Positions 6,107-60,006 of a DNA stretch of 63,059 nt are shown piece by piece. The stretch's first letter is position 1. Every line of letters begins with the position of its first letter. A program made the position numbers and the translations under genes. The notes below the pieces were generated by a model, which saw only the letters and a program-made list of their open reading frames with translations, did no database searches and had not been told where the DNA came from. This DNA comes from Armatimonadota bacterium (lineage in GTDB: Bacteria > Armatimonadota > Fimbriimonadia > Fimbriimonadales > GBS-DC): assembly GCA_023511915.1 (NCBI GenBank), contig JAIMAN010000007.1:1-63059 (forward strand), in the 5' to 3' direction.

Positions 6107-6856
6107 ATGGCAACCATCCGAGTCACAGTCTGGGACGAGAACCCACCGCATGTGGACAAGGCGATTTACCCGACCAGCATTCGCGGCGCGGTGGCGGAAG
6201 GGCTGGCGAAACTGAACGACGGCATGCTGGAGATTCGCACTGCGCACCTTGACGAACCCGAACAGGGCTGCAGCCTCGAACGCCTGCGTGAGACCGATGT
6301 GCTGATTTGGTGGGGGCACATTCGGCACGGCGAGGTGAGCGACGAGACCGCCGAGCGCGTCCGCCAGCGCGTGCATCACGAAGGTATGGGGCTGCTGGTG
6401 CTGCATTCGGGGCACTACTCCAAGCCGTTCCAGCGCGTGTTGGGCTGCACGGGGCACCTCAAGGGCGGCTGGCGCGAAAAACACCCTGCCGAACCCGAAC
6501 ATGTGCGCGTGTGCGCCCCGCAGCACCCCATCGCGCAGGGCATCGAGGATTTCGTTATCGAACACGAGGAGATGTACGGCGCGCCGTTTGATGTGCCCCC
6601 GCCACTGGTCGTCGTGTTCCAGTCCTACTTCCCCGACGGCGGCGAATATTTCCCGACAGGGTTGTGCTGGACGGTCGGCGACGGGATTGACCCGAACTTC
6701 ACTTCGGGACCGGGCAACGGCGTCAATCAGGGCTACGGCATCGGGCGCGTGTTCTACTTCCGCCCCGGACACGAGAGCGTGCCGACCTACCACCATCCGA
6801 TTGTGCAGCGCATCATCTACAACGGGGTGCTGTGGTGCGCGAAGCGGACGGGCTGA
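6107..6856 (+). CDS. ThuA-like domain protein
   Basis: 249 residues resembling the ThuA (trehalose-utilisation) family, a class I glutamine-amidotransferase-like fold used in sugar metabolism; the exact reaction is unclear. Supporting motifs are VTVWDEN at the N-terminus, TDVLIWWGHIRHGEV, and GMGLLVLHSGHYSKPF. A GGAG-containing site precedes the ATG. It overlaps the threonine aldolase gene by 25 nt, so both are probably in one transcript. No signal peptide, so cytoplasmic. Confidence 0.85.
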   Translation: MATIRVTVWDENPPHVDKAIYPTSIRGAVAEGLAKLNDGMLEIRTAHLDEPEQGCSLERLRETDVLIWWGHIRHGEVSDETAERVRQRVHHEGMGLLVLHSGHYSKPFQRVLGCTGHLKGGWREKHPAEPEHVRVCAPQHPIAQGIEDFVIEHEEMYGAPFDVPPPLVVVFQSYFPDGGEYFPTGLCWTVGDGIDPNFTSGPGNGVNQGYGIGRVFYFRPGHESVPTYHHPIVQRIIYNGVLWCAKRTG

Positions 6857-7893
6857 TTGACCTGCGTTCGGACACCGTCACGAAGCCGACGCCCGCGATG
6901 CGCCGCGCGATGGCGGAAGCGGAGGTCGGCGACGATGTGCTGGGCGACGACCCGACAGTGCAACGCCTGCAGGAAGCCGCCGCCCAGCGCGTCGGCAAGC
7001 AAGCCGCGCTGTTCGTGCCCAGCGGCGTCATGGCGAACCTCGTGAGCCTGATGACCCTCACAGGGCGCAACGAGGAGGTGATTGTCGGCGACCAGTCGCA
7101 CCTGTATACCGCCGAAGTGGGCGGGCTGGGCATCTTCGGGAATGTGTTTTTGCATGTGCTGCCGAACCTGCCCGACGGAACCATCCCGCTGGAGCGGTTG
7201 CAGGGCGCGATTCGCGACGCCGTCTACACCCCCAAAACGCGCGTGATTAGCCTCGAAAGCACGCACAACCGCTGCGGGGGCGCGGCGCTGCCGTTGGACT
7301 ACATCCAGCAGGTCGCGGCGGTGGCGCAGGCGCGCAGCGTCGCGCTGCATTTGGACGGCGCACGCATCTTCAACGCGGCAATCGTGCTGGGCGTCTCCGC
7401 TGCGCAAATCGCCGCGCCGTTCGAGGTGGTCAACTTCTGCTTCTCGAAGGGACTGGGCGCGCCTGTGGGGTCAATCGTGTGCGGGTCGGCGGCGTTCATT
7501 CAGGAGGCGAAGCGCACGCGGCGGATGCTGGGCGGCGGGATGCGTCAAGCAGGCGTGCTGGCGGCGGCTTGCCTGGTCGCGCTGGAGACGATGGTGGATC
7601 GCCTCGCGGAAGACCATGCGCACGCCCGCATGCTGGCAGACGGGTTGGCGAACATTCGCGGGATACGCATCGACCCCGCCCGCGTGCAGACCAACATCGT
7701 GATTTTCGAGGTAGACCCTGCTACAGGCTGGGACAGCGCGCGGTTGCAGCAGGCGTTGGCGGCGCGTGGGGTACTGCTGTCGCTGTCGGGCACACGCCTG
7801 CGCGCCGTGACGCACTACCACATCACCCGCGCGGACATCGAGCAGGCGTTGGCGGTCGTCCGAGAGACAACCGAGTGCAATCGCAGCGGCTGA
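6832..7893 (+). CDS. ltaE: Low-specificity L-threonine aldolase
   Basis: 353-residue PLP-dependent fold-type I enzyme that cleaves L-threonine or L-allo-threonine to glycine and acetaldehyde. The start (IDLRSDTVTKPTPAMRRAM) and the glycine-rich EVGDDVLGDDPTV segment are family hallmarks. The PLP lysine is K206 in FSKGLGAP, and HLDGARIFNAA carries the cofactor Asp. A GTG start inside the ThuA-like gene gives a 25-nt overlap. Length is normal. Confidence 0.95.
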   Translation: MVREADGLIDLRSDTVTKPTPAMRRAMAEAEVGDDVLGDDPTVQRLQEAAAQRVGKQAALFVPSGVMANLVSLMTLTGRNEEVIVGDQSHLYTAEVGGLGIFGNVFLHVLPNLPDGTIPLERLQGAIRDAVYTPKTRVISLESTHNRCGGAALPLDYIQQVAAVAQARSVALHLDGARIFNAAIVLGVSAAQIAAPFEVVNFCFSKGLGAPVGSIVCGSAAFIQEAKRTRRMLGGGMRQAGVLAAACLVALETMVDRLAEDHAHARMLADGLANIRGIRIDPARVQTNIVIFEVDPATGWDSARLQQALAARGVLLSLSGTRLRAVTHYHITRADIEQALAVVRETTECNRSG

Positions 7894-54284: not shown

Positions 54285-54794
54285 CTACGAGTCGCGCTGA
54301 CGCTGCTGGGCGCACGCCTCGTGGATCCAGCCCAAGCCTCGAACCTGCGTGATACGCTCGCCGGGGTGGACGGGCTGCCCGCAGTGTCGGCAGATGCCAG
54401 GATAGCGTGCGACGATGGTGTAGGCGACCGCCGCGCGTTGCTGGCGGTTGCGGCAGTGGGCATGCACATACCGTCCCCACTGCTGGTGGCGCACGATGGG
54501 GTCGCCGACTCGGATTGGCTCGCCGCAGCCGGGGCACTGGCTCTCGAACCGCGCGTAGAGAACAGGGTCTGCCTCGCGCGGCGGCTCTTGGAGGTACGCC
54601 CGCACAAGCGCCATAGGATCGAACGCCTCGTCGTCGGGTTCGAGGACATTCAGCGCGGCGCAAATGATCGCCTGCAGTTGCTGCGCCTGCTCTCGGACGA
54701 CGGGCGTTGCTGCGGCAGTGGGGTCAGCCGCCGCCTCTGCGCGCGCCTGCTGATTCTGCAGCCATCGCCGATTGAACGGAATCGGTTTCGCCAT
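54285..54794 (-). CDS. Double treble-clef zinc-binding protein (E3-like candidate)
   Basis: 169 residues, not assigned to a named family. After a helical N-terminal half come two similar modules: C87-x2-C90-x20-H111-x2-C114 (CPGCGEPIRVGDPI) and C135-x2-C138-x19-H158-x2-C161 (CRHCGQPVHPGERI). Each should bind one zinc, resembling PARP/LIM/RING-type treble clefs. It starts 3 nt after the JAB-E1 gene and is cotranscribed with E1 and E2, so an adaptor or E3-like role is plausible. DNA binding is the main alternative. Confidence 0.7.
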   Translation of the reverse strand: MAKPIPFNRRWLQNQQARAEAAADPTAAATPVVREQAQQLQAIICAALNVLEPDDEAFDPMALVRAYLQEPPREADPVLYARFESQCPGCGEPIRVGDPIVRHQQWGRYVHAHCRNRQQRAAVAYTIVARYPGICRHCGQPVHPGERITQVRGLGWIHEACAQQRQRDS

Positions 54795-54797
54795 CGG

Positions 54798-56291
54798 TTA
54801 TCCCCCTCGCGGCGTCGGGATCGGTTTGCTTTTCGGGGCGCGTCGAGGCGCAAGGTAGCCCATCAGCCCGTACAGCCCCTGCCCCAGCAGGCTGTCGGGG
54901 TGCGATGCGCACAGCAGGCAGTTTGGGTTGCGCTCGGCGCGCGCGGGAAACACATGCTGCCCCAGCAGGTCGTAGTAGATGTACGGCTGGACAGGCGCGC
55001 AGTGCGTGGCTAATTTTACCAGCTCCCACACCAGCAGGTTCCCGACGACGCCGTTGAGGAACACCACCTGCGGGTTAGGTATCGCTTCGCCCTGAATGTA
55101 GCCCCCGCGGATGGAGAGTTCGCGCTGGTGGGGCGTGAGTTGCTCCTCGACGCTTTGGCGGATGCCGCGCTCGGTGCAGGCGAGGCACGCGGTCGCGCCA
55201 GGGATGACCACCTGCACCTGTCCGCCGCCTTGCGCGAGGCGTCCGTTCTCGCTGCGGACGCCGACGCCCGCATCGAGGTAGGGGATCAGCGCGCACATCG
55301 CGACGGTGTTCAGGTACTGGCGTGCGACTGCGCTGTCCACTGCGCCGACGATGAGGTCGCAGCTGAGCAGGTGCGCCAGCGCCTCGCGTGTGCGCACATC
55401 CAGCGGCAGTGGGGCAACGGTGCGACGCTCAGGCGGGCGCGCACGGTTGAGCCGCTGCGCCAACGCGCGCACTTTGCGCCAGCCGCGCACCGCTTGCGCA
55501 TAACTCGCGCCCACCACACGGTTCAGGTTGCTCAGCTCCAGTCGGTCGGGGTCAATCAGCAGCAGGTGTCCGACGCCCAGCAGCGCGAGCGCGTTAGCGA
55601 TTTGCGAGCCGAGCCCGCCCGCGCCGACCACCGCCACGCGCAGATGGCTGAGCATCGCCTGCCCTTCCAGCCCGAACGCGCGCACCTGACGGTCGTACAC
55701 CGCCAGCGCCGTGCGCGCCCAGTCGGGGGGCTGGCAGTCGGCGCCGTACAGCGTGCGCGGGGGTACCTCCAGCACTTGCAGGCGCGTGATGGTCGCCATC
55801 GCCTCGCGCGTGTAGTCCCAGAAGCGACCCTCGAAGCTCATGTCGCAGCCGAACACGAGGCTGCCGTGCCGAAACGGGGGCGACATCGGCTGCGTGGTTT
55901 GGAACTTCTGCAGGTCGCTGCGGTCGTCGACGCCCGAAAAGCGCGGCAGCGTCGTCCACGGGTGCGTGTGCGCCTCCAGCAGTGCGTAGCCCTCGCGGGC
56001 GCAGCGCACCAGCAGCGCGTGGACGAACTCGGGGCGCGTCTCCACAAGGCTTGCCGAACGCTGCGCGTATGCCTCGTCGGGCACGGGCACGACCTCCCGC
56101 GCCAGAAACACCACGCGCCCGCTGCTCTCCAGCGTGCGGCACAGCACGAAGCATTTCGTCTCGCGGCTGAGGTCGGCAAGCAGCGTCGCCCGCAGCTGCT
56201 CCCAGACCGCCTGTGGGAAGCGCACCTCGCCCGTCATCGGCGAGTATTCCAGCGTCACGGTCGCTGGCGCATGGTTCGGATTCACTTCCAC
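54798..56291 (-). CDS. JAB deubiquitinase-E1 (ThiF) fusion protein
   Basis: 497 residues. N-terminal JAB/JAMM metalloprotease domain with HTHP (H108, H110) and S119-x2-D122, the zinc-protease motif. C-terminal E1 adenylation domain with nucleotide motif VVGAGGLGSQ (223-229), LLIDPDRLELSNLNR, and zinc-binding CxxC pairs C369/C372 and C458/C461. Expected: activation of a ubiquitin-like protein and its processing or removal in one polypeptide. The GTG start at 56291 is 10 nt after AGGAGG and overlaps the E2 stop by 10 nt. The protein ends PTPRGG. Confidence 0.88.
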   Translation of the reverse strand: MEVNPNHAPATVTLEYSPMTGEVRFPQAVWEQLRATLLADLSRETKCFVLCRTLESSGRVVFLAREVVPVPDEAYAQRSASLVETRPEFVHALLVRCAREGYALLEAHTHPWTTLPRFSGVDDRSDLQKFQTTQPMSPPFRHGSLVFGCDMSFEGRFWDYTREAMATITRLQVLEVPPRTLYGADCQPPDWARTALAVYDRQVRAFGLEGQAMLSHLRVAVVGAGGLGSQIANALALLGVGHLLLIDPDRLELSNLNRVVGASYAQAVRGWRKVRALAQRLNRARPPERRTVAPLPLDVRTREALAHLLSCDLIVGAVDSAVARQYLNTVAMCALIPYLDAGVGVRSENGRLAQGGGQVQVVIPGATACLACTERGIRQSVEEQLTPHQRELSIRGGYIQGEAIPNPQVVFLNGVVGNLLVWELVKLATHCAPVQPYIYYDLLGQHVFPARAERNPNCLLCASHPDSLLGQGLYGLMGYLAPRRAPKSKPIPTPRGG

Positions 56292-56725
56292 CGCTCGAAT
56301 GCCTCCTTGATAAGTTCGCACACACTTAGCAGCGAGTGCCCCTGCAGCGGGTCGGCGGCGGGCTGCCAGTCGTAGATGTGCAGGCAGCAGCCTGTCCAGC
56401 CGCGCATCTGCGGCGGGGCGTCCTCGAACCACTCCTCGTTCGGGTCGAAGCTGAGGTCATCGTAGAACACATGGTCAGGCTCGTCGCCGTTTTCGAGCAA
56501 CAGCTCCGCGTCCACATAGAACCAGTCGGGCGGCGTCTGCGGGTAGTTTCTGGGCAGCAGGATTAGCACATCGGTATGCGTGTAGTTGTATCCCGCTGGC
56601 AGTGGGAAATCCTTGATGATGACCCAGCTCCCCGCCTCGTCGTCGTAGTGTGCGCTATGCGTTGCCGAATAGCGGACGGCAGCCAGCGCGACTTCCGTCA
56701 TGATGCGCTGTAGCCGTGAGTTCAT
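56282..56725 (-). CDS. Prokaryotic E2-like conjugating protein (family E type)
   Basis: 147 residues. Strands with VLILLPRNYPQTPPDWFYVD match the E2/UBC core (the YPxxPP motif), and GWTGCCLHIYDWQPAADPL carries candidate catalytic Cys113/Cys114 with His116 downstream, the Cys-then-His pattern of prokaryotic E2 family E. It sits directly before the JAB-E1 fusion (10-nt overlap) and 3 nt after the small 63-residue gene. It should take the thioester from E1 and pass it to a target. Confidence 0.85.
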   Translation of the reverse strand: MNSRLQRIMTEVALAAVRYSATHSAHYDDEAGSWVIIKDFPLPAGYNYTHTDVLILLPRNYPQTPPDWFYVDAELLLENGDEPDHVFYDDLSFDPNEEWFEDAPPQMRGWTGCCLHIYDWQPAADPLQGHSLLSVCELIKEAFERWK

Positions 56726-56728
56726 CGG

Positions 56729-56920
56729 TTAGCGTGCGCCGTCTTCCCAGCGCGGCAGCCGCTCGATGGAGGGCACGCGCTCCAGCACCTCGTCGGGCGT
56801 CGGCAACGGCTGATCGAGAACCATCGGGTCGTTCTCCGTCTGCGGCAGAACGGGCTTGAGGGTAATCTCGAACTCCGTGTCGTTCACCCGAACTTTTTCC
56901 TTGACAGCAGTATTGGTCAT
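56729..56920 (-). CDS. 63-residue first gene of the conjugation operon
   Basis: Short protein starting MTNTAVKEKVRVNDTEFEIT. The segment KVRVNDTEFEITLKP predicts a beta hairpin, as at the start of a ubiquitin fold, but the protein is shorter than ubiquitin and ends EDGAR rather than GG. It could be a minimal or processed ubiquitin-like modifier (JAB cleavage after DG would remove AR), or simply a small accessory protein. GGGGG lies 6 nt before the ATG and a TATAAT box lies further upstream. Confidence 0.65.
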   Translation of the reverse strand: MTNTAVKEKVRVNDTEFEITLKPVLPQTENDPMVLDQPLPTPDEVLERVPSIERLPRWEDGAR

Positions 56921-56948
56921 ACTATACCCCCTAAGCGTGTGATAGCCA

Positions 56949-56954
56949 ATTATA
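56949..56954 (-). promoter_or_regulatory. -10 box (TATAAT) of the conjugation operon
   Basis: Minus-strand GAGTATAATTGG about 30 nt upstream of the first gene; weak -35. This would transcribe the 63-residue protein, E2, JAB-E1, zinc-finger and probably sialidase and AraC genes. Confidence 0.55.
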
Positions 56955-57024
56955 CTCCATGCGCCCTGCAAAAGTTTCAAGGGTTTGGGCGCAGAATCGG
57001 CGATTCGGGTGGGAATTTGGCGGC

Positions 57025-57366
57025 TTATCTTGCGAGGCGGATGGCTTCCAGTGCGCCGTTTCGGTAGACGACGATGAGTGTCGGCTGCCCGTTGCGCTGC
57101 GCGGGAAACGCCGCCACAATCGGCTCGCCCGTCAGCAGCGGCGTGTACCGCCACTGCCCGTCGCGGAACTGCGCGACGCCTCCGCCCGCAGTGTGGCTGA
57201 GCACATACTCCTCGTTGCCGTCCGAGTCGTAGTCGCCGAACCAGACGACGCGCCCCTCGAGGTCAAACACCGCCCACTGCGCGGGGTCAGCCGCCGCGTC
57301 GCCGTCGGGAACGCCCGCCAGCACCGTTGCCGCTTGCAGCACTGGGGGTGCATCGTCGAAAAGCAT
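57025..57366 (-). CDS. Small VCBS/FG-GAP-like protein
   Basis: 113 residues with one repeat DYDSDGNEEYVLSHTAGG and flanking beta strands (AVFDLEGRVVWFG). It starts 3 nt after the stop of the larger repeat protein, lacks a signal peptide, and reads like a further blade of the same propeller. It may be a split C-terminus of the upstream gene or a separate cytoplasmic partner. Confidence 0.6.
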   Translation of the reverse strand: MLFDDAPPVLQAATVLAGVPDGDAAADPAQWAVFDLEGRVVWFGDYDSDGNEEYVLSHTAGGGVAQFRDGQWRYTPLLTGEPIVAAFPAQRNGQPTLIVVYRNGALEAIRLAR

Positions 57367-57369
57367 CGC

Positions 57370-58650
57370 TCACGTCTCCGAACTGGGCGGATTGAATTGA
57401 AAGCCACGCAACTGTGTGTGCGTCGTGTTTGCTGCAAGAGTGCGCTTGCCCCGCATCAGCCATTCGGCGTCCTTGAGTCTACTCAGCCGCGTGCGATGCT
57501 CGCCCGATTGCTCCACCAGCGCGCCGTTGGCGTAGCGCCAGACTGTCCAGCGCGCACGGTTGCCCGACTCGACAGTGTTCGTGATGAGTTCGTCGCGCCC
57601 GTCGCCGTCCACATCCATCGCCTCCAGCGCAAGGTAGTATTCCTTCGGAAGGCTATGCGTGAGGATTGTATGGAGTTTCCCGTCTTTGAGGTGGTACGCC
57701 GTAATCTCGAACAGGGTGTTCGCGGGGGTTCCGCTCTGTCGGGCGTAGATGATTTCCTGCGGGACGGCGCCGTCCAGCTCGGCGACAAGCCACTGCTCGC
57801 CCGCTGTGAACGGATGCGGGAACGGTATCTGCTTGCCGCGGGAGAGGCGTATTGTGCGCTGCAGCACATCGAGCTGTTCGGGTTTACCGTCCCCGTCGCT
57901 GTCGGGCAACGACACCGTAGGGCGCGGAGGTTGGTACATAAAAGGCGCAGGGATGGAGTGGGCAACCTGCCCAGAGGGCAGCACGCGCTTGGTGGTAACC
58001 TGCTGAAGCAACTGTTCTTCCACGCGGCTTGGGTCGGGCACAGGCTCCGCCAGCGGTTGCCAGCGACCTTCTGCGGTTAGGCGGAACGCCGTCGAGTGGG
58101 GGGCAAGGTGTACCAGCAGGGTTTCAGGCACGCTGTCGCCGTCGGCGTCGAAGAGCGTTGCGTAAGGCAACCGCTCGGAACGCGCCTCGCCGATTGCTGT
58201 CAAGGCGAAGTCGCCTCCGTCGCGGCGCAGGCGCGTCAGGCGTTGCGTGGTCGCGTCCCAACCGAGCAGCTCGCGCTGCAGGATCGGTTGCTTCGGGCGT
58301 TTGCTTTCGTAGGGTGGGAAGGGCGTGTAGGTAGGCTCGTAAAACACGGCAATCGGCAGCGTCTCGAACTTGCCGTTCAAGTCGCTCCAGAGGGCGGCGT
58401 CGCCCTGCCGTGCGCTGAACCGTTGGCGCACAGCGACCACCTCGTGGTTGCCGTCGTCGTCCAAGTCCACAGGGAATGCTGCGATGACCTCGCGTGCGCC
58501 TGTCGGTGTGGGGAACTGCCCCAGCGACTCGCGCACGAGGTTCGGCACAGGCGGCGGCTCCCGACGCGCCGCGCGGGTCATCACCAACACCAGCGCAACC
58601 CCCAACGCAATCAGCCCCACCAAAGCCCAAATCACTTTTTGGTAGCGCAT
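57370..58650 (-). CDS. Signal-anchored VCBS/FG-GAP repeat protein
   Basis: 426 residues. N-terminal TM anchor (VIWALVGLIALGVALVLVM), then four or more calcium-loop repeats: DLDDDGNHEVV, DADGDSVPETL, DSDGDGKPEQL, DVDGDGRDELI. This is an integrin-like beta-propeller fold, extracytoplasmic. Function unknown; such proteins often bind partners or matrix. ATG 58650 opens the anchor. Same-strand neighbours: Csx2-like upstream, small repeat protein downstream. Confidence 0.75.
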   Translation of the reverse strand: MRYQKVIWALVGLIALGVALVLVMTRAARREPPPVPNLVRESLGQFPTPTGAREVIAAFPVDLDDDGNHEVVAVRQRFSARQGDAALWSDLNGKFETLPIAVFYEPTYTPFPPYESKRPKQPILQRELLGWDATTQRLTRLRRDGGDFALTAIGEARSERLPYATLFDADGDSVPETLLVHLAPHSTAFRLTAEGRWQPLAEPVPDPSRVEEQLLQQVTTKRVLPSGQVAHSIPAPFMYQPPRPTVSLPDSDGDGKPEQLDVLQRTIRLSRGKQIPFPHPFTAGEQWLVAELDGAVPQEIIYARQSGTPANTLFEITAYHLKDGKLHTILTHSLPKEYYLALEAMDVDGDGRDELITNTVESGNRARWTVWRYANGALVEQSGEHRTRLSRLKDAEWLMRGKRTLAANTTHTQLRGFQFNPPSSET

Positions 58651-58728
58651 ACAACTCACCCGCCTATAGGTTCGCGCGCGTGGGGTGAGGTTCCTGCAAG
58701 TTGGGACGCTGAATTTGCAGTATGAACG

Positions 58729-60006
58729 CTATGACTCGCTCTGACTGCTCATGAAGTTCTTCACTGTCTGGCTCGCTTCCTTGTAGAACGCTTGAAGCTC
58801 CTCATCCGACTCTAACGCCTTTTGTGTTGCCCCGTCAGGCGGCTGGCTTGCGTGGACAATCGTGTTGCGCACATTACGAAGAGTCTTGAGAACGCCCGTC
58901 GTATCACGATGGCATAGTTCACTGAAGGCATGCGAGCGACACTGGTGGTCAAGCATCGCCTCCTGCGGATTGGGGTACTTCTGGTAAACTGCAAACGCCA
59001 CTATCGTCTCAAAGAGTAGTGTGTAGGCGACTACATAGTCCCTGTGTTCGGCAGCCTCGTCGGCGCGCGCGAGTAGACGCTCCAAGTGGGATGGCTGCAG
59101 GTGTTTTTGCATCTGCGTTCGCATGTGATCTAAGAGATCGCTTTTCAAAGGGTGTTCGGCGGGGAGCGTTCGCTGCGCCTGTGCGAGGAACTTATGTACG
59201 CGGTTGGGGTTTATGGGGCGGTTGGTGCGCTCCATAAACGCAATCTGCGCGAGTTGGTCATGGAGGCTCTCCTCAATCAACGCCTTGCCCAACGGCTCGT
59301 AGTCGCCGCTGGTTTGCAGCACGCTCACATGTTGGATGTATTCCAGCAGTTCGGGGAACAAGTCCAGCTTCAACACGCGGTTACTCATCTCCAACGCGCC
59401 GTAGTAGAGTTCGACGCCTGAGAGGTTTTTCAGCATGCCCAGCAGCACCACCATCGGCGCAAGCAACATCGGCTGGTGGCGGAAGCCGTGCGTAATGTCC
59501 AGTACCAGTTCACTGCCTTCGGGAACCTCTTGGCTTAGCACGCGCCACATCTGCAGTTGCGAGGTCGGCGCTTCGCACCAGCCCACCAGCTGGCACTTGA
59601 CCACCATCGGCTGCAGCCGCTCCGAGAGCGCGTCGCTCCACTCATCCAGCAGCCGCTGGGTCAGTTGCCCGATTCCCGTGGCGCTGGACGATTGTTCCTC
59701 CGCTTTCACAGCGTCGCGAATTTTTCCGTAAACCCGATTCAGGGCGCTACCCTGTTGGTCTTCGGGAACTCCCTCCAGCAGCGCGTCCCAGTTCGACTGC
59801 GGGCTGCCCAGCACCAGCCATCGGTCAATCGGCTGGCGCAGGTGCTGTTCGTAGTAGGTCAGCAGCGCAAGCCCAAAGACCGAGATTGGCGGGCTTTGCC
59901 ACCCGTCGGGGAAGCTGTACTGCGTTGTCTGATAGCCACTGGACGCGCCGTCTCGTTTCCCCTTCCCAATAAAGCTAACCAGCACTCGCGGCTTCGGTGG
60001 GTTCAT
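58729..60006 (-). CDS. CRISPR-associated CARF-HEPN protein (Csx1/Csx2-like, DxTHG)
   Basis: 425 residues. N-terminal CARF-type domain starting PRVLVSFIGKGKRD, with the signature LDITHGFRHQPM (D170-x-T172-H173-G174). C-terminal helical HEPN domain with R380-x4-H385 (RNTIVH), the RNase motif. In type III CRISPR systems such proteins are activated by cyclic oligoadenylate and degrade RNA. No array, cas10 or other cas gene is in the window. GGAGG lies 9 nt before the ATG, and TATACT within the upstream gene gives it its own promoter. Overlaps DUF1385 by 32 nt. Confidence 0.85.
   Translation of the reverse strand: MNPPKPRVLVSFIGKGKRDGASSGYQTTQYSFPDGWQSPPISVFGLALLTYYEQHLRQPIDRWLVLGSPQSNWDALLEGVPEDQQGSALNRVYGKIRDAVKAEEQSSSATGIGQLTQRLLDEWSDALSERLQPMVVKCQLVGWCEAPTSQLQMWRVLSQEVPEGSELVLDITHGFRHQPMLLAPMVVLLGMLKNLSGVELYYGALEMSNRVLKLDLFPELLEYIQHVSVLQTSGDYEPLGKALIEESLHDQLAQIAFMERTNRPINPNRVHKFLAQAQRTLPAEHPLKSDLLDHMRTQMQKHLQPSHLERLLARADEAAEHRDYVVAYTLLFETIVAFAVYQKYPNPQEAMLDHQCRSHAFSELCHRDTTGVLKTLRNVRNTIVHASQPPDGATQKALESDEELQAFYKEASQTVKNFMSSQSES

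Follow-up and report, generated by a model that had tools for sequence, protein, structure and literature searches.

The described systems closest to the operon analyzed here are Bub, a bacterial ubiquitination-like pathway represented by the Citrobacter proteins BubB and BubCD (PDB 9ea4, 9ea5, 9eae, and 9eav; Ye et al. 2026, as cited by PMC13373217), and the type 6e systems, which combine a polyUbl (Ubl, ubiquitin-like protein), an E2/RWD-like domain without the cysteine, a JAB domain placed before E1, and a zinc protein with the signature C-x3-C-x35-38-H-x2-C (PMC1779556). Based on their matching parts, Bub appears to be the same as the type 6e that Iyer et al. described in 2006, an equation that is our own. 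The operon in question lies on the minus strand of a 63,059-nucleotide stretch of DNA from a member of the Fimbriimonadales (Armatimonadota), contig C83 of genome G000 in our set, and this whole stretch is hereafter called the window. It encodes, in order, a 63-residue protein, an E2-like protein, a fusion of a JAMM (JAB) protease with an E1 enzyme, and a double-zinc protein. Judged by sequence, it belongs to the Bub/6e kind, whose gene set and JAB-E1 order are already known, and it differs from all the Bub/6e loci that we examined in the C-x-H motif of its E2, in the type of its modifier, and in its zinc protein. We consider it probable that this is a divergent Bub/type 6e operon for protein conjugation, in which the E2 is of the Cys type and the miniature modifier is not a β-grasp protein. 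Two further systems are less similar. Bil (BilABCD) also has Ubl, E2, E1, and JAMM in one operon, but its JAB is separate, its E1 has two domains, its Ubl is an ISG15-like double Ubl, and its E2 carries a CEHH motif (PMC11354881). CBASS Cap2/Cap3 has an E2–E1 fusion and a cGAS-like enzyme, whereas the E2 of the window is encoded by a separate gene, and no nucleotidyltransferase was found among the neighboring genes scanned in the window.

The original prediction, made from the DNA sequence, was of a ubiquitin-like conjugation operon with an E2, a JAB-E1 fusion, and a double treble-clef protein; protein families, relatives among solved structures, structure prediction, and co-occurrence support it, but the supposed novelty of the JAB-E1 chain and a link to a CARF-HEPN gene were not supported. 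All four predicted minus-strand open reading frames (ORFs) are present, namely, the putative modifier gene (56729..56920; 63 residues), the E2-like gene (56282..56725; 147 residues), the JAMM-protease/E1 fusion gene (54798..56237; 479 residues), and the zinc protein gene (54285..54794; 169 residues). Three nucleotides separate the modifier gene from the E2 gene and the JAB-E1 gene from the zinc protein gene, as predicted, but the third gene probably does not overlap the second, because orthologs point to a start at ATG 56237 (MTGEV...), 44 nucleotides past the E2 stop codon, and not to the overlapping GTG at 56285. The third-position GC content is 0.79-0.86 across the four genes. The operon is real and not a chance arrangement, because eight other genomes have these four genes side by side and the 63-residue gene is under purifying selection.

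The E2-like protein matched the Pfam family Prok-E2_E (PF14462; 3.3e-13, 49.9 bits against a cut-off of 25) over its N-terminal half only, and its profile was closest, among solved structures, to Citrobacter BubB (PDB 9eae; 2.2e-6). We compared the catalytic motifs in an alignment of 18 E2s, including 11 Bub-type sequences from plasmids and Armatimonadota. The window E2 contains C113-C114-L-H116, a C-x-H motif that had been correctly predicted, as well as H85 in a P-x-H-x-F-like segment; the codons of the candidate catalytic Cys113-Cys114 lie at 56384..56389 on the minus strand. C113 is invariant among the orthologs and C114 nearly so. A cysteine is found at or beside the catalytic position in the E2s of the window, of its family Fimbriimonadaceae, and of three other genomes (G119, G067, and G275), whereas C114 aligns with the serine of S-x-H in 11 of the 11 sampled Bub-type E2s; the corresponding sequence of Citrobacter BubB is W-S-R-H. 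Bub uses ester, not thioester, intermediates. The two types also differ outside the motif: the Cys-type E2s have the P-x-H-x-F-like segment and, ahead of the last helix, a short insertion, and all 11 Ser-type sequences lack both. In many orthologs of the E2 (L020-L023), the C-terminus is extended by an acidic stretch that ends in D-P-F-x, which is absent from the window E2.

The JAB-E1 chain matched ThiF (1.3e-41) and, just below the cut-off, Prok-JAB (8e-5); these families, together with Prok-E2, had been proposed for hidden Markov model searches along with the original prediction. Its top match among solved structures was Citrobacter BubCD (PDB 9ea4; 4.2e-26, with query residues 31-434 aligned), followed by MoeB (3.8e-17) and MccB chains (7e-8). 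The JAMM motif is complete: E26, H90, H92, S101, and D104 are conserved, with HTHP or HSHP at the histidine site, and D104 aligns with the Asp that was changed in the solved BubCD mutant D104A. The motif had been predicted as HTHP and S119xxD122 and is indeed present, but counted from ATG 56237, it reads H90-T-H92-P and S101-x-x-D104. The E1 half bears the adenylation-domain signature GAGGLGS, in agreement with the prediction, together with NLNR, GAVDS, and two CxxC pairs, and the 479-residue chain contains a single ThiF domain. A JAB domain placed before E1 in one chain, once thought to be new, is the architecture of BubCD and type 6e, and Bub shares with the window also an adjoining Prok-E2_E/BubB-type E2; the BubCD match and the type 6e description rule out a new domain order. 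A cysteine in the JAB half, C79, occurs in all the Cys-type chains and in no Ser-type chain. In an E1 tree, the window's family (f1) and G119 formed one clade (support 100/99), and the grouping of Cys- and Ser-type chains beyond this clade was weak.

The MccB matches, the small size of the first gene product, and the presence of a protease in the same chain as a ThiF/MccB-type adenylation domain would also suit a pathway for a ribosomally synthesized and post-translationally modified peptide, in which the C-terminus of the 63-residue precursor is adenylated in the manner of MccB and JAMM trimming releases a small product. We regard such a pathway as highly improbable, given that BubCD stands far above MccB as a structural relative, all 63 residues and not a leader alone are conserved, the E2 with its Cys-x-His always adjoins the 63-residue gene, and no transporter recurs in the neighborhoods.

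The 63-residue protein matched no Pfam family. Eighteen homologs have E-x-V-x-x-N in common close to the start; their middle part varies, and the end, LPxW(E/Q)DG, is invariant, including its glycine, with one to four variable residues after it. Within the genus, the protein is 81.7-100% identical and is better conserved than any other product of the operon. Compared with the nearest relative (G010), its gene shows eight synonymous and one nonsynonymous codon changes, which indicates purifying selection; the corresponding numbers for the E2 gene are 35 and 17. A processing site is best supported by G119, a genome from another family of the phylum, in which a 54-residue modifier ORF with a purine-rich ribosome-binding site immediately precedes the genes for a Cys-type E2 and a JAB-E1, and the stop codon falls exactly after ...NLPVWEDG. 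Because this modifier naturally ends at the glycine, the window protein is probably processed after Gly61 (codon 56738..56740, minus strand), and JAMM trimming would give the mature end LPRWEDG|AR. Bub operons also have a small protein in the Ubl position upstream, with a C-terminal glycine and a few residues after it whose removal is predicted here; Bub-type multiubiquitins end in glycine with 0-10 further residues (ANFG, TFG|RS, and TFG|GGV). The G119 modifier was located by synteny and not by profile search: in a profile search of 291 genomes of the phylum, strong matches were found only in the window's family, and the others were weak (best 0.001, with an internal stop).

AlphaFold2 placed strands at residues 6-12 and 15-21, forming a β-hairpin, followed by a linker and a short helix at 42-48, with a predicted local distance difference test score (pLDDT) of 72 and a predicted template modeling score (pTM) of 0.25. 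The input was a shallow alignment of seven near-identical sequences, drawn only from the window and its related loci, and the model is weak support for that reason. Independently of the model, a complete β-grasp domain could hardly fit into the 54 residues of the G119 homolog, and the window protein looks too small and too simple for the ubiquitin fold. It differs in this from the modifiers of Bub, and from those of type 6e, which are β-grasp repeats of 70-75 residues. A Foldseek search with the model gave no match, and multiubiquitin was tried as an identity and not detected (no Pfam match; hhalign profile comparison, probability 1%). The first gene likely encodes the modifier, with a fold out of the ordinary and a site for processing; the original prediction mentioned neither this role nor the cysteine of the E2 in place of the serine of Bub E2s. 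The lack of a predicted β-grasp fold and of profile similarity to multiubiquitin, as well as the duplication of the 63-residue gene along with E2 and not with E1, would also fit a protein that regulates E2 or acts as its co-factor, while some other small cellular protein (ThiS/MoaD-like or unknown) serves as the real tag. We find this quite unlikely, as the 63-residue protein stands where Bub operons have their Ubl, with a conserved glycine and a short variable tail, its G119 relative is encoded already trimmed at that glycine, and the tail is among its most constrained parts.

The modifier and E2 genes were found in 14 of the 18 genomes of the family (11/13 in the genus and 3/5 outside it). 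All four genes occur together in nine genomes, including that of the window, and E2, E1, and the zinc protein are in this way kept together in homologous loci. In two other genomes, the set is divided but retained: G001 has the modifier-E2 pair and the JAB-E1-zinc pair on different contigs, and G013 has JAB-E1 on a contig other than that of the modifier, E2, and a one-module zinc protein. Of the 18 genomes, 14 have both the modifier-E2 pair and JAB-E1, and three have neither (G011, G015, and G017; Fisher p=0.005, computed on related genomes that are not phylogenetically independent). The fourth family genome without modifier-E2, the 65%-complete G005, contains JAB-E1. G121 carries a relic (L074, about 6340-7060) with a frameshifted modifier ending in LPVWESG, a frameshifted E2, and no intact JAB-E1. 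In G275 (L067 2136-2348), a 70-residue Ubl-like protein ending in KGGC precedes a Cys-type E2 and JAB-E1, and this locus is possibly intermediate between the multiubiquitin and mini-tag systems.

The zinc protein consists of a conserved N-terminal peptide, MAKPIPxNRRWxxNQ, a variable linker, and two C-x2-C-x20-H-x2-C modules, a signature distinct from that of the type 6e zinc protein. AlphaFold2 predicted treble-clef folds with eight Cys/His ligands for the modules (pLDDT 85-97), so that alignment and structure prediction agree with the double treble clef originally proposed. No convincing Pfam family was found, and DUF6527 was rejected because of its different spacing and an hhalign probability of 1%. 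In a Foldseek search, the RINGs of RNF12 and RNF165 and C1, LIM, and PARP-1 fingers matched about equally well and nonsignificantly, none with E below 0.001; the RNF12 RING match had prob 1.0 and E 0.16. A candidate E3-like role of the protein is plausible. The C-terminal tail of JAB-E1 (54798-54830) reads KPIPxPR in the genus and KPIPTPRGG in the window, and its core recurs in the N-terminus of the zinc protein (54750-54794); G119 lacks both the zinc protein and the KPIP tail on JAB-E1. The core is likely a common docking motif of the two proteins. In eukaryotic E2s, E3s and E1s compete for or follow one another at a common site, and by analogy, we hypothesize that the KPIP motifs share a docking site, for example, on E2 or the modifier, where the zinc protein would compete with or follow E1.

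In the mechanism that we propose, the JAMM half of JAB-E1 would cleave the 63-residue protein after Gly61, and the E1 half would adenylate the Gly61 carboxylate with ATP. The tag would then move to the E2 cysteine (C114 or the neighboring C113), with H85 and H116 nearby and apparently without a conserved E1 catalytic cysteine. E2 would pass the tag to an amine of the target; the zinc protein, docked by its MAKPIPxNRRW peptide, would act here as an E3-like factor or target adaptor, and the JAMM half could take the tag off again. We judge it an evenly balanced proposition that this is an E1-E2-JAMM pathway with a non-β-grasp tag, a hairpin-helix of 54-63 residues ending in ...LPxWEDG, which would be a Pup-like minimal tag existing alongside the UBact-proteasome system of the same organism. 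Pup and UBact are likewise modifiers of about 60 residues without the ubiquitin fold and with a C-terminal glycine region, but they are used by a PafA-type ligase.

Several points weigh against the proposed conjugation operon. To our knowledge, all E1-handled modifiers are β-grasp proteins, whereas the window protein failed to join them in the profile comparison and its AlphaFold2 model is of low confidence. No conserved non-zinc cysteine was found in the E1 half in the alignment of Cys- and Ser-type chains. The nucleophile may be C113 or C114, because positions 113-114 are Cys-Ser in the G119 E2, whereas the E2s of G121, G067, and G275 have Cys at 114 only. The zinc protein is not essential to the core, since G119 does without it. 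Four genomes, G000 (contig 54), G010, G004, and G006, contain additional modifier-E2 pairs (L029 6003-6646, L030, L031, and L032) that have no E1 nearby and only in some cases a zinc gene, and several pairs could therefore share one E1; when the E2s of main and second loci were placed in a tree, which was weakly resolved, the second copies of the genus formed one clade. Finally, sequence and models show the architecture, the complete JAMM motif, the adenylation-domain signature, the Cys and His of E2, the conserved tail with its glycine, and the co-occurrence, whereas processing, activation, thioester formation, conjugation, the role of the zinc protein, and the targets are inferred.

If confirmed, the operon would represent ubiquitination in an unusual and pared-down form. 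Since Bub systems as such have already been described, the claim is for now a modest one; its interesting part is a tag without the ubiquitin fold handled by ubiquitin-type enzymes. If this is true, the ubiquitin fold would not be required for E1/E2-driven tagging, and the enzymes could use a minimal tag read by a short C-terminal motif. The loci would form a series from Ser-E2 with multiubiquitin, through Cys-E2 with a β-grasp-looking Ubl (G067 and G275), to Cys-E2 with a mini-tag (G119 and the window's family), which would make two questions testable: how E2 chemistry switches between serine and cysteine, and to what extent a modifier can shrink.

As for the physiological role, the distant relatives Bil and CBASS are anti-phage systems, PADLOC E1-E2 models matched the E1 half (7e-22), and Bub operons are described as putative immune pathways, often beside DNA-damage regulators, in PMC13373217, which also states that phage protection by Bub is not shown. 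A CARF-HEPN gene (58729-60006), identified correctly in the original prediction (NCBIfam TIGR02221, 98.7 bits against a cut-off of 76.25; PADLOC CARF_HEPN, 2.5e-59), lies nearby. However, this gene is absent at this site in the closest relative, G010, in which only about 120 bp separate the modifier gene from a DUF1385 gene upstream; the CARF-HEPN and FG-GAP genes, within about 3 kb (57025-60006) between DUF1385 and the operon, are therefore specific to the window. CARF-HEPN is also absent near the orthologs, and we rejected it as a component of the system, considering it an unrelated neighbor. The neighbors of the operon vary except among close relatives, no defense genes are common to the neighborhoods, and unlike in Bub, no CapW/CapH/CapK-type neighbor was seen and the operon is near-universal in the genus. 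No match to the E2 was found in phage records or IMG/VR viral contigs. Anti-phage defense in the manner of Bil or CBASS Cap2/Cap3 is thus an unlikely function.

The operon also has a promoter-like element of its own. An alignment of the DNA upstream of orthologous modifier genes (13 loci) gave the consensus GGAACTTTTTCAGGGCG...GGGGTATAAT, and the corresponding stretch of the window (56949..56980, minus strand) contains a −10 element, TATAAT (56954-56949); this TATAAT-like element, about 30 nucleotides before the modifier ATG, is kept across the loci. The ribosome-binding site may be GGGGGT (56930-56925). Given the near-universal presence in the genus, this promoter-like element, the lack of shared defense genes, and the window-specific CARF-HEPN gene, the operon probably serves cellular housekeeping or stress control rather than being a mobile anti-phage module.

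The same genome (G000) contains a complete UBact locus on another contig (L117 6591-9943, G000:C120), which encodes a Pup_ligase protein (PF03136; 2.5e-155), a 62-residue UBact (PF20513; 2.7e-23), and two proteasome subunits, so that two small-modifier systems would coexist in this organism. UBact was found in 14 of the 21 genomes searched.

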